Source: Blattabacterium cuenoti (GTDB lineage: Bacteria > Bacteroidota > Bacteroidia > Flavobacteriales > Blattabacteriaceae). From it: a DNA stretch of 64,000 nucleotides. Below the pieces are notes generated by a model. The model did not search any database. It was not told the origin of the DNA and saw only the letters and a list, made by a program, of their open reading frames with translations. The translations under genes and the position numbers were made by a program. Positions within the stretch are counted from its first letter, which is position 1. Each line of letters begins with the position of its first letter. The stretch is from assembly GCF_014252295.1 (NCBI RefSeq), contig NZ_CP059215.1, forward strand, positions 248,001 through 312,000. The letters run 5' to 3'. Positions 11,605 to 62,165 of the stretch are shown piece by piece.

Positions 11605-12798
11605 ATGATGATTTCTTATATTTTCAAAGACAGAATTTATTTCTCTTTTTTAAGAGAGACAAATTCTGTCTTTTTAAGATCTGCAGTTGCTTTTTTTTTA
11701 TCATTTTGTATAGCATTGATTTGTTATAAAAAAATTATATGTTGGAATAAGAGAAAAAAGAATGGAATAGGAGAACAAATACGAGATCTTGGACTCATTG
11801 GACAAAAAGAAAAAGAAGGAGTACCAACGATGGGAGGAGTTGTAATGATATTTTCTACATTAATTTCTACAATTATTTTTTCTTCTTTGAAAAACATATA
11901 CGTAATAATGTTGATTACAACAATGTTAATTATGGGGATTGTTGGATTTTTAGATGATTATATTAAAATAAAATATAATAAAAGAGGACTTAGTATAATG
12001 GGAAAAATATTAAGTCAGATTTTATTAGGATTTTTGATTGGAAATATTATGTATTTCTTTACAAATACAAATGAATCTATTTTAGATTCAAAATTTTTAG
12101 TTAAAAAAGAACATGGTTTTAAAACCACTCTTCCAATTTTTTATTCTAGTCATAATAATGAATTTGATTATGCTTTTTTTTTAAGTTGGTACAATAAAAA
12201 ATGGAAAAAATATACATGGATTGTTTTTATTCCTATGGTCATTTTAATTATGACATTTCTGTCTAATGGAGCTAATTTAACAGATGGAATAGACGGATTA
12301 ACAGCCGGAATTTCTTCAATTATTTTTGCTACTTTATCTTTATTATCTATCATATCCAGCAATAAAACATATTCTTCTCATCTTCATTTGATATATATTC
12401 CTCATTTGGATGAAATAAGCATATTTTCTTTTTCTTTTATAGGTACTTTGATAAGTTTTCTTTGGTACAATGTTTATCCTGCTCAAATATTCATGGGAGA
12501 TACTGGTAGTTTAACTATAGGAGCTGTCATCGCAACTTTAGCTTTTATAAATAGAAAAGAACTAATATTACCAATATTGTGTGGAATTTTTTTTATAGAA
12601 AATATTTCTGTTATAATACAAGTATTGTATTTTAGATATTCTAAAAAAAAATATGGAATAGGAAAAAGAATTTTTCTCATGACTCCTTTACACCATCATT
12701 TTCAAAAACTAGGATATCATGAAAATAAAATTTTTAACCGTTGTCTCATCATACAAATGATTCTTTCTATGTTAGTGTTTATTTTATTAATTATATAA
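11605..12798 (+). CDS. mraY: phospho-MurNAc-pentapeptide transferase
   Basis: Transfers phospho-MurNAc-pentapeptide to undecaprenyl phosphate, forming lipid I. This 397-residue polytopic membrane protein has the family's cytosolic acidic motifs: FLDDYIK, NLTDGIDGL and FMGDTGSL, plus the late histidine block MTPLHHHFQ. The length is slightly above the roughly 360 of E. coli, as in other Bacteroidota, owing to a larger cytosolic loop at about residues 150-200. It is followed by murD after three bases. Confidence 0.95.
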   Translation: MMISYIFKDRIYFSFLRETNSVFLRSAVAFFLSFCIALICYKKIICWNKRKKNGIGEQIRDLGLIGQKEKEGVPTMGGVVMIFSTLISTIIFSSLKNIYVIMLITTMLIMGIVGFLDDYIKIKYNKRGLSIMGKILSQILLGFLIGNIMYFFTNTNESILDSKFLVKKEHGFKTTLPIFYSSHNNEFDYAFFLSWYNKKWKKYTWIVFIPMVILIMTFLSNGANLTDGIDGLTAGISSIIFATLSLLSIISSNKTYSSHLHLIYIPHLDEISIFSFSFIGTLISFLWYNVYPAQIFMGDTGSLTIGAVIATLAFINRKELILPILCGIFFIENISVIIQVLYFRYSKKKYGIGKRIFLMTPLHHHFQKLGYHENKIFNRCLIIQMILSMLVFILLII

Positions 12799-12801
12799 AC
12801 T

Positions 12802-14168
12802 ATGAAAAAAAAATTAATAGTAATCCTAGGAGGAGGAGAAAGTGGGGTAGGGGCCGCTTTATTAGCAAAAAAAAATAGATTAAAAGTATTTTTGTCTGAT
12901 TCAGGAATTATTTTAAATAAATACAAAAGAATTTTAATGAAAAACAAAATTCCTTTTGAAGAGAAAGGACATACAGAAAGTATAATAGAAAAAAAAGCTA
13001 TTAAAGTAATAAAAAGCCCTGGAATTGATAGAAAAAATTCTCTTATAAAAAAAATTAATTTTTTGAAAATTCCTATTCAATCCGAATTGGAATTTGGAAT
13101 AAGTTATCTAGATAAAGAGAAGCCCTGTATTATAAGCGTGACAGGAAGTAATGGGAAAACAACAACCAGTTCAATAATTTATAAAATACTTCAAAGTAAT
13201 GGAATTAATGTAGGAATAGCAGGAAATATTGGACATAGTTTTTCCAAAGAAGTTTTAAAAAAAAAAACGTTTATGTATTGGAAGTTAGTAGTTTTCAATT
13301 AGATGATTGTTTCAATTTTAGATCAAATATTTCAGTATTATTAAATATTACACAAGATCATTTAAATAGATATGATAATATTGAAAGTTACATGTACTCT
13401 AAATTTAAAATAGCAACTTTACAGAAAAAAGAAGATATTTTCATTTACAATTATGATGATCCTATCATCAGAAAGGGATTAAAAAAATATCCTATTTTTT
13501 CTATTTGTATTCCTTTTTCCATAAAAAAAGAATTAAATATTGGATCTTATATAAGAAGTAATAAAATATTTATTCGGAATCAAAAAAATCAAGAAATATG
13601 TTTCTTAAATATAAGAGATATTCCTTTAATAGGAGATCATAATTTATACAACATTATGGCTTCATTAATTATATCAGAAATATTAAATGTCCAAAAAAAA
13701 TCAGTACTTCCTATCATATTAAAGTTAAACCCTATAGAACATCGTATGGAAAAAATACTAAATATAAATGGAGTTCAATTTATTAACGATTCTAAAGCAA
13801 CAAATGTTAATGCTGTTTTTTATGCATTAAAAAGCATAAATGGACCTGTTATATGGATAGCAGGGGGAAAAGATAAAGGGAATGATTATGTAGAACTAAT
13901 TCCTATGGTTCAAAAAAAAGTGAAAGCCATAATTTGTTTAGGAAAAAACAATGAAAAAATTATCAATTTTTTTAAAAATATTATTGATATTATTTTGGAA
14001 ACGAAAGATATTCAAAAAGCTGTTTACATGGCTTACATATTATCTTCTCATGGAGATAAGATTCTCCTCTCTCCTTCCTGTTCTAGTTTTGATCTTTTTA
14101 AAAATTATGAAGATAGAGGGAATAAATTTAAAAAAGAAGTCATAAAGCTTTTATATGAAAAAATATGA
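12802..14168 (+). pseudogene. murD: UDP-MurNAc-L-alanine:D-glutamate ligase, frameshifted in a poly(A) tract but probably functional
   Basis: The first frame (12802-13302) holds the ATP loop TGSNGKTT (about residues 114-121) and ends soon after an A11 tract at 13257-13267. The second frame runs to 14168 and carries the rest of MurD: VYVLEVSSFQLD, GDHNLYN, HRMEK, NDSKATN, GGKDKG and LSPSCSSFD. The downstream frame has no good start, only TTG at 13278. Reading twelve or nine A would join the parts; with twelve, the protein has 455 residues, a normal length. Everything after the break is conserved, which argues for rescue by transcriptional or -1 ribosomal slippage rather than decay. Sequencing error is the alternative. 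The four-base overlap with ftsW is intact. Confidence 0.85.
13257..13267 (+). other. A11 slippage tract within murD
   Basis: Eleven consecutive A after TTTT. One extra A, two fewer, or a -1 ribosomal slip on AAAAAAA restores the frame (…AAC GTT TAT GTA TTG GAA…, reading NVYVLE). Without correction, translation stops at 13300-13302. Confidence 0.9.
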
Positions 14169-15361
14169 AGAAATTAAGTGTTATTTTTAATAGGTCTCTA
14201 AAAGGAGATAGGTATTTATGGGCTTTTATCTCTTTATTAGCTATATTTTCTTTTTTACCAGTATATTCCGCTAGTACTAATTTAGTTAGTACATATGGAG
14301 GGACAAATACAGTTTTTAGTTATTTATTAAAACATGCTTTTTTCTTGTTAATTGGTTTTTGTATTCTTTTTTTTACTCAATTTATAGACTATAAATATTT
14401 TTACAGAGTGTCTCTACTATCTATTCCGATAGTATTCATTTTATTAGTTTTGACTATTAGTCAGGGAAAAGAATTAGATGGAATAAATGCTTCACGTTGG
14501 TTACATATTCCTATTATAAATATATCTTTTCAAACTTCCAGCATTGCTGGATTAGTTCTTTTTATTTATTGTGCTAGATATTTATCAAAGAAAGAAAATA
14601 TAAATTTCATGAACTCTTTTTTACCTTTATTGTTCCCTATATTTGTTATTATTGGGCTTATTTTTCCAGATAATGGTTCTACTGCAGTTATTGTTTTTAT
14701 TTCTGTTTTAATTTTGCTTTTTATAGGAGGATATCCATTAACAGGTGTTATGGGAGTTTTATTGATGGGTATTTTATTTGCAGGAATCTATATTTACTCG
14801 GTTATAAAATGGGGCGATAAAAATCCAATGAATAGAGTTTACACATGGAAAAGCCGTATAGAACAATTTTTAGATCACGAATCTGAAGAAAGTTATCAAA
14901 TGAAACAGTCTAAAACGGCAATTGTATTAGGAAATAAATTTGGTCGTGGTCCTGGAAAAAGTGTTTCAAAAGCATTTCTTCCTCAATCTTCTTCTGATTT
15001 TATTTATGCTATTATAATAGAGGAATATGGATCTTTTGGAGGAGTAATACTTTTATTTATTTATCTTCTAATTTTGCTTAGGATCATGGTTATAGCGACG
15101 AAAGTAAAAAATTATTTTTGCTCTTTATTGGTATTAGCTGTTGGGTTACCTATTATTAATCAAGCACTCATTAATATGGGGATTGCTGTAGGTTTATTTC
15201 CAGTAACAGGACAAACTTTACCATTAATTAGTGCTGGAGGTACTTCTATGTGGGTTACTTTTTTTAGTTTTGGTATCATATTAAGTGTTAGTAGAATTAT
15301 ATATAATAATTCAAATAATGATAATTCAACTAATAAAATTATAATTAATCATGAACAATAA
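14165..15361 (+). CDS. ftsW: SEDS-family septal glycan polymerase FtsW
   Basis: Polymerises glycan strands from lipid II at the septum, partnered with FtsI. The 398-residue polytopic protein (about ten membrane segments) has the SEDS signatures NASRWL, the periplasmic-loop region GRGPGKSVSKAFLPQSSSDFI and the C-terminal TGQTLPLISAGGTS. Its start overlaps the murD stop by four bases, and its end overlaps murG by eleven. Confidence 0.95.
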   Translation: MKKLSVIFNRSLKGDRYLWAFISLLAIFSFLPVYSASTNLVSTYGGTNTVFSYLLKHAFFLLIGFCILFFTQFIDYKYFYRVSLLSIPIVFILLVLTISQGKELDGINASRWLHIPIINISFQTSSIAGLVLFIYCARYLSKKENINFMNSFLPLLFPIFVIIGLIFPDNGSTAVIVFISVLILLFIGGYPLTGVMGVLLMGILFAGIYIYSVIKWGDKNPMNRVYTWKSRIEQFLDHESEESYQMKQSKTAIVLGNKFGRGPGKSVSKAFLPQSSSDFIYAIIIEEYGSFGGVILLFIYLLILLRIMVIATKVKNYFCSLLVLAVGLPIINQALINMGIAVGLFPVTGQTLPLISAGGTSMWVTFFSFGIILSVSRIIYNNSNNDNSTNKIIINHEQ

Positions 15362-60677: not shown

Positions 60678-60782
60678 ATATAAAAAATTATTCTATTTAA
60701 TGCAATTTATTCTTTTATTTTGATTTCTTTTTAAGATTGATTAAATCAGAATTGCCATGTAACTTTATATTTTCATATTCTA

Positions 60783-60804
60783 CTATTTTTATTCTATTTT
60801 TATT
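60783..60804 (+). repeat. tandem 11-base repeat before mntH
   Basis: CTATTTTTATT occurs twice in succession, followed by a partial third copy (CTATTATT), ending about ten bases before the mntH start. It could affect promoter or leader spacing. Confidence 0.7.
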
Positions 60805-60818
60805 CTATTATTCTGCTT

Positions 60819-62165
60819 ATGCAAAAAAAAAAATCATATCCATATCCAGAATGGAGAGGATGGAGAAAAGAGAACAAAACCCCTTCCCTTTCGGAAGTTT
60901 TTTCTTCCGTTTCTGTTCCTCAAAAAAAAGGAATATGGAAAAAACTTTTTGCTTTTACTGGTCCAGGATTATTAATTGCTGTAGGGTATATGGATCCAGG
61001 AAATTGGGCTACAGATATCGCTGGAGGGGCAAAGTTTGGTTATATGCTTTTATCCGTTATTTTTATATCCAATTTTTTCGCTATTATATTACAACATTTA
61101 GCTTTAAAATTAGGAATTGTTTGTGAGAGAGATTTAGCACAAGCTTGTAGAGACCATTATCCACCCTTTATTAGTTTTATATTATGGATTCTGTGCGAAA
61201 TATCTATTGCAGCTTGTGACTTGGCTGAAATTATTGGTTCTGTATTAGCCTTAAAACTACTTTTTGGAATTCCCATTACATGGGGTGTTCTAATTACAGT
61301 TGTTGATGTTTTAATTATTTTATTTTTTCAATATAAAGGATTTAGATATATTGAAAGTGTGGTTGCTGCTTTAATATTTACAATTTTAGTTTGTTTTAGT
61401 TTTGAAATTATTAGTTCAAAACCGGAAATATTTCCCATATTACAAGGCATTATTCCTAATATAGAAATAATTAAAAATTCACATTCTTTTTATATATCCA
61501 TTGGTATATTAGGTGCCACAGTAATGCCTCACAATCTTTACCTTCATTCCAGCATTATACAAACTAGAGATTATCCACGTACTACTATAGGTAAAAAAAT
61601 GGCTATAAAATATGCAACAATAGATAGTACATTATCTTTATCCTTAGCATTTTTTATTAATGCTGCTATACTAATCATATCTGCTGCCACTTTTCACAGA
61701 TCTGGATATACAGAAGTAGCAGATATTATGCATGCACACAAACTTTTAACTCCTATACTTGGCTCTAGCCTTGCTGGAGTTTTTTTTGCATTAGCTTTGC
61801 TAGCATCAGGACAAAATTCCACATTAACTGGAACTTTAGCTGGACAAATAGTTATGGAAGGATTTCTAAATATCCAATTAAAACCTTGGATAAGAAGATT
61901 AATAACAAGACTTATAGCTATTGTTCCAGCTATGATCGTTTCTATTTTTTATGGAGAAAAAGGAACAGCCGAATTATTAATAATAAGTCAAATAATTTTA
62001 TCAATACAATTAAGTTTTGCTATTATTCCATTAGTGTATTTTACAGGAGATTATGAAAAAATGGGACCATTTGCAAATGGTCCCATTCTCAAATTATCAT
62101 CGTGGTTAATCACGATGATAATTATATTATTAAATATATTTTTATTGTATGATATTTTACATTAA
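60819..62165 (+). CDS. mntH: Nramp-family manganese/divalent metal transporter
   Basis: A 448-residue inner-membrane, proton-coupled importer with about eleven spans. The metal-site motifs are present: MDPGNWATD in span 1 and MPHNLYLHS in span 6. Codons 2-5 contain an A11 tract (60823-60833) that reads in frame. The last 35 codons include two perfect inverted repeats (62061-62086, 62092-62123) that probably act as a terminator for the opposite strand. The spacer upstream, 214 bases to pheA, is the largest in the window and holds no gene that I can support. Confidence 0.93.
   Translation: MQKKKSYPYPEWRGWRKENKTPSLSEVFSSVSVPQKKGIWKKLFAFTGPGLLIAVGYMDPGNWATDIAGGAKFGYMLLSVIFISNFFAIILQHLALKLGIVCERDLAQACRDHYPPFISFILWILCEISIAACDLAEIIGSVLALKLLFGIPITWGVLITVVDVLIILFFQYKGFRYIESVVAALIFTILVCFSFEIISSKPEIFPILQGIIPNIEIIKNSHSFYISIGILGATVMPHNLYLHSSIIQTRDYPRTTIGKKMAIKYATIDSTLSLSLAFFINAAILIISAATFHRSGYTEVADIMHAHKLLTPILGSSLAGVFFALALLASGQNSTLTGTLAGQIVMEGFLNIQLKPWIRRLITRLIAIVPAMIVSIFYGEKGTAELLIISQIILSIQLSFAIIPLVYFTGDYEKMGPFANGPILKLSSWLITMIIILLNIFLLYDILH
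62061..62086 (-). terminator. 26-base perfect palindrome with T run: terminator of the rpsF-rpsR-rplI transcript
   Basis: ATGGGACCATTTG is followed by its exact reverse complement. On the minus strand the stem is followed at once by six T (TTTTTTCATAA, counting the last stem base), a classic intrinsic terminator, 82 bases after the rplI stop. It lies wholly inside the mntH coding sequence, where it encodes KMGPFANGPI. Confidence 0.75.
62092..62123 (-). repeat. 13-base inverted repeat, second hairpin inside mntH
   Basis: AATTATCATCGTG and CACGATGATAATT are exact complements around a six-base loop (62105-62110). Five bases separate it from the palindrome at 62061-62086. It precedes that palindrome for a polymerase leaving rplI, so it may slow it or protect the transcript end. 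Confidence 0.7.

Follow-up and report, generated by a model that had tools for sequence, protein, structure and literature searches.

How might a bacterium that retains the peptidoglycan pathway obtain MurD from a murD gene written in two reading frames? The question arises in a 64,000-nucleotide stretch (hereafter, the window; positions 248001-312000) of the genome of the cockroach symbiont Blattabacterium, a single contig of 624,952 bp, where the two frames of murD meet at a run of eleven adenines (A11) and no further lesion is found. The window groups with Blattabacterium, its closest named match being Blattabacterium cuenoti ESCALves at 79% identity.

The split murD and its relatives

The gene lies in the division and cell-wall (dcw) cluster between mraY and ftsW (Table 1). 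Its 5' part matches MurD_N and the start of Mur_ligase_M (the P-loop start of the central domain), and its 3' part matches the remaining Mur_ligase_M (central ligase domain) together with Mur_ligase_C, the alignment beginning at residue 156 of the E. coli MurD structure. On the murD model TIGR01087, the two parts abut, covering profile positions 2-149 and 157-439, respectively, and the score of 262 bits over nearly the whole model (cut-off, 212) identifies the locus as a murD equivalog. The frames and the profile coverage confirm the first-pass annotation, made from the sequence alone, which had described a murD in two frames at A11 that was otherwise free of lesions and had proposed that a tract of twelve or nine A would join the frames into about 455 residues; a murD of 455 codons results if the tract is read with one A more, with two A fewer, or through a -1 ribosomal slip. 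A single homopolymer indel with no other lesion is the form expected of a frameshift rescued by slippage.

Table 1. Features of the murD locus (positions in the window)
Feature	Position	Strand	Remarks
mraY	11605..12798	+	intact upstream neighbour in the dcw cluster
murD, 5' part	12802..13302	+	frame 0, 166 aa; stop codon TAG at 13300-13302
murD, 3' part	13239..14168	+	-1 frame, stop-to-stop opening at 13239; stop codon TGA at 14166-14168
A11 tract	13257..13267	+	putative one-base deletion site and proposed slippage site; compared in 49 species
Two in-phase A_AAA_AAA heptamers	13257-13263 and 13260-13266	+	suit -1 ribosomal slippage
TTG	13278..13280	+	sole nearby start-like codon for the murD 3' part in the window strain
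ftsW	14165..15361	+	intact downstream neighbour; ATGA overlap with murD

Among the 62 ORFs of the window, which carry about 57 coding A/T tracts of at least nine bases, murD is the sole split gene. Four other homopolymer junctions were considered as split genes and rejected because the matched halves belong to different genes; these pairs involve rlmB, uppP/truB, prephenate dehydrogenase, or ftsQ/ftsA, and two short partner ORFs at such junctions of the window gave no match.

The tract was compared in the genomes of 49 Blattabacterium species (that of the window and 48 others), a check that the first-pass annotation had proposed. A break at this tract was present in 23 of the 49 species (22 of 48 without the window's), always in the phase seen in the window, and murD was in frame in the other 26. 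All 23 breaks are one base short modulo three, with the other wrong phase seen in none of the 49 species, and this repetition of both tract and phase exceeds what chance would produce. In a genus-wide search, too, the open frame holding the MurD C-terminal part measured about 305 aa in many genomes, while others had one of about 460 aa. Most split tracts consist of A9 followed by G, the rest being A10, A11, A13, or A14; an unbroken run of at least nine A (9-14) occurs in every split species, and a run shorter than nine in 6 of the 26 in-frame species. The longer runs in split species mostly look like the outcome of adjacent substitutions (GAT/GAC to AAA/AAC) that leave the spacing unchanged, and most clade relatives of the window strain have A_AAA_AAG where the window has A_AAA_AAA. 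Equally long tracts are in frame in other species (A10, A12, A13).

Two trees were built with murD left out, one from ten neighbouring proteins and one from seven, the latter rooted with free-living flavobacteria. Twenty of the split species belong to a single 24-species clade (UFBoot 100 for the bipartition in the ten-protein tree; SH-aLRT 71 in the fast rooted tree), which includes the symbionts of Blattella germanica (G042), Blaberus giganteus (G044), Nauphoeta cinerea (G046), Panesthia (G017), and Escala (G007); its named members live in Blaberoidea. The four in-frame members of the clade are G031 (A12), G042 and G044 (both A10), and G046 (A9). The first three sit among split relatives and are in frame through a single-base difference in spacing. 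The Nauphoeta symbiont (L150) has kept A9 and is in frame because two bases immediately 3' of the tract have been lost, apparently a compensating change rather than a reversion of the tract; its ftsA shows a frame change near the 3' end. Outside the clade, three split species (G030, G038, and G015) occupy a fast-evolving part of the tree, and their breaks are probably independent events.

Fitch parsimony required 8 changes for this distribution, against a mean of 16.7 over 2000 label shuffles, none of which gave so low a number. With the root fixed in frame, a two-state likelihood model placed the split state in the clade ancestor with P = 0.994, and this ancestor probably already carried a split murD. 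Among the hosts, the divergence of Blaberidae from the remaining Ectobiidae is dated to 134.7 Ma (110.6-162.0) and the first split within Blaberoidea to 183.6 Ma (PMC5478607). If the symbionts track their hosts, these dates make the break more than 100 million years old, and the split murD would probably have relied on slippage at expression for that long. Judged from the compared sequences, the break is probably ancient and clade-wide rather than particular to the window strain.

Selection on murD and frame breaks in neighbouring genes

In the 20 split species of the clade, the median pairwise dN/dS was 0.21 before the break and 0.20 after it, compared with 0.10-0.26 in ten neighbour genes and 0.21/0.27 in the murD of 15 in-frame species. 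The break is thus shared and followed by sequence under purifying selection, the pattern of a maintained homopolymer frameshift, and the relaxed selection and accumulating lesions of a pseudogene were not seen in murD. Even in G038, where mntH has numerous stops, the break in phase is the only lesion of murD. The window's genome contains no second murD, and the statement of the first-pass annotation that the remaining peptidoglycan pathway is present holds for murA, murB, murC, murE, murF, mraY, and murG, with ftsW and ftsI intact as well; across the 49 species, murA is intact in all and murB in 48. Because there is no second murD and the pathway is retained, MurD should be needed.

Losses of other kinds were also recorded. 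The gene for the Nramp metal transporter MntH (window 60741-62162) is missing in 7 of the 49 species, and in G038 (G038:C1:290581-291837) it has decayed and carries many stops. The murB of G008 (G008:C1:270530-271533, minus strand) is broken with stops, and murE of the same species has a poly-A break; together, these lesions possibly reflect real erosion of peptidoglycan synthesis there.

Our survey of other genes covered the window, a 20-kb region in the 49 species, and four further genes. Ten neighbour genes carry 815 A/T tracts of at least nine bases over the 49 genomes, yet only 7 frame breaks were found in their 490 copies, against 23 in the 49 copies of murD. Two further tract-bearing genes are full length wherever present in the 49 species, apart from the decay of mntH. 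Private poly-A breaks in otherwise intact genes were found in murE of G020 (L152) and G008 (L168), murG of G034 (L137) and G003 (L164), and a YjgP-like gene of G024 (L153). They affect mostly cell-wall genes, and murG is broken at an identical early tract in two distant species. All of these neighbour breaks are, like those in murD, one base short, as expected if only losses of one A are tolerated, being corrected by the addition of an A or by a -1 ribosomal slip; this direction argument rests on few independent events, and the pattern could look the same under a deletion bias in mutation or base-calling. The tract itself is conserved just weakly above expectation, given that AAA makes up 93% of Lys codons and that 198 of 356 conserved Lys columns contain nothing but AAA, which hints weakly at selection holding its synonymous positions.

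Possible routes to a full-length MurD

We consider it probable that murD suffered an ancient A deletion and that its function has been kept through transcriptional slippage restoring the phase at the tract. One A would have been lost from an A10-type tract before the radiation of the Blaberoidea-associated clade, with similar deletions arising up to three more times outside it. RNA polymerase would slip on the A run, so that a fraction of the mRNAs would gain one A (or lose two) and yield full-length MurD of about 455 residues, the other transcripts giving a fragment of 156-166 aa. Bacterial RNA polymerase is known to slip at runs of at least nine A (PMC5009743, PMC3711429), and in frameshifted genes of symbionts such slippage has been shown to correct 12-50% of the transcripts. 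We infer that full-length MurD is most likely produced and that transcription most likely slips more than the ribosome. The rescue by slippage suggested in the first-pass annotation agrees with the shared break, its constant phase, and the selection on both parts, evidence that suits slippage in transcription and in translation alike.

Ribosomal -1 frameshifting on A_AAA_AAA or A_AAA_AAG, as in dnaX, would make full-length MurD from unedited mRNA and is the strongest of the alternatives, albeit an unlikely one as the sole route. The heptamer is correctly phased both in the window and in the tracts of split species and conforms to X_XXY_YYZ; the 0-frame stop comes within a few codons of the tract; and the genome has one tRNA-Lys(UUU) (30 of 32 tRNAs inspected), a combination of heptamer and single tRNA that suits ribosomal slippage equally well. 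Against this, tracts of A9-A14 exceed what a heptamer needs, and the stimulators of the dnaX type were not seen: inspection by eye revealed no strong SD-like element directly 5' of the tract, and folding of 75 nt in the 49 species revealed no stable conserved hairpin 3' of it (shuffle z about 0 in most). The lack of a supporting downstream RNA hairpin favours transcriptional over programmed ribosomal slippage; slippage of the ribosome may possibly add to that of the polymerase.

The persistence of the split state bears on a further reading. The length of a poly-A run mutates easily, and a costly split state should therefore have reverted nearly everywhere; the clade instead holds 20 split species, 4 in frame, and none in the other phase, which suggests that being split is close to neutral or may even be of use. 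There is a slim chance that the frameshift is programmed, with the efficiency of slippage at the tract setting the amount of MurD, and so the output of peptidoglycan, throughout the clade; such a role would explain why the split phase is in the majority although a single base would revert it.

The genome copies within a host might instead be polymorphic at the tract in a manner resembling phase variation, a minority in frame supplying MurD while the consensus reports the majority length. Tract length does shift between close relatives, as in the in-frame G031, G042, and G044 amid split species, but a single majority phase in 20 of the 24 clade species, with no +1 state, is hard to obtain from free drift in length, and we regard this possibility as improbable.

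The remaining alternatives are made unlikely by the selection on murD, the neighbour control, the lack of a second murD, and missing start codons. The idea that MurD works as two polypeptides, with internal initiation of the second (for example, by termination-reinitiation), has little to recommend it. Of the 20 split clade species, 12 do have a -1-frame ATG immediately 3' of the tract, and where the 0-frame stop is TAG this ATG begins 2 nt after the stop. However, G025 and G024 offer the 3' part no usual start codon within its first 40 codons, and in G005, G007, G030, G038, and G015 none precedes SSFQ; because of such species, we rejected internal initiation as a general route. The break also cuts the central ATP-binding domain, and the same Met codon is present in the in-frame BGIGA and BNCIN. 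The TTG of the window strain is not conserved (TTA in most relatives) and is thus probably a mere Leu codon. In the split loci of the Blaberidae-type subclade (L088, L089, L097, and others), the -1-frame ATG, which in most of these species follows the 0-frame TAG by 2 nt, is a possible site of termination-reinitiation.

A homopolymer or assembly error was the caveat of the first-pass annotation. Poly-A runs of at least nine bases are error-prone in sequencing, and of the four clade members that are in frame, three come from older published genomes (Bge was sequenced by 454 and Sanger). We hold such an error to be very unlikely, since the break follows the phylogeny over 23 separate assemblies, equally long tracts are in frame elsewhere, and the neighbours are so seldom broken. 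Symbiont genomes do lose genes, as mntH in G038 illustrates, but decay of murD into a pseudogene is scarcely credible given a dN/dS of about 0.2 in both halves clade-wide, ligase domains without other stops, and the retained pathway.

Relation to known slippage systems

Our searches of the searchable papers, with subscription papers outside their scope, found neither an earlier report of a frameshift or slippage in Blattabacterium murD nor, among the searchable papers, a confirmed case of such rescue in Bacteroidota. If the rescue is confirmed, murD would be among the oldest known essential bacterial genes whose DNA does not give the correct reading and which depend on errors of expression. 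With 23 split and 26 in-frame species, repeated origins, and reversions (of the four apparent ones, three lie in older genomes, where tract length calls for caution), the genus is a natural experiment that may show how frameshifts are buffered by slippage while genomes decay. Automatic annotation could record a loss of murD in roughly half of the Blattabacterium species.

The slippery sequences of the murD tract are of the same kinds as those of dnaX, where Thermus thermophilus uses transcriptional slippage on A9 and E. coli uses ribosomal -1 frameshifting on A_AAA_AAG. Both products of dnaX are used, whereas only the full-length product of murD is expected to be functional, and no stimulatory hairpin was seen. 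Closer parallels come from Buchnera and Blochmannia, in which poly(A) frameshifts are rescued by transcriptional slippage (Tamas et al. 2008, as summarised in PMC5009743 and PMC3017870). As outlined there, these cases share with murD an AT-rich insect symbiont, a one-base indel in a long A tract, and an otherwise intact gene, and they also include cell-wall genes; they differ in that murD belongs to Bacteroidota, that its rescue is proposed from DNA sequence, and that its break recurs in 23 species. Ancient frameshifts kept by selection were described in Blochmannia (Wernegreen, Kauppinen and Degnan 2010, as related in PMC3017870 and PMC4389277), where, in those accounts, a homopolymer break is likewise conserved between species without decay. 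Blochmannia and its hosts are about 40 My old (PMC4389277), in contrast to more than 100 My for the murD break by host dating, and, as far as those accounts allow comparison, the reversions and repeated origins visible in the 49 Blattabacterium species set murD apart. The kind of system is already known; its age, breadth, and recurrence here are unusual.
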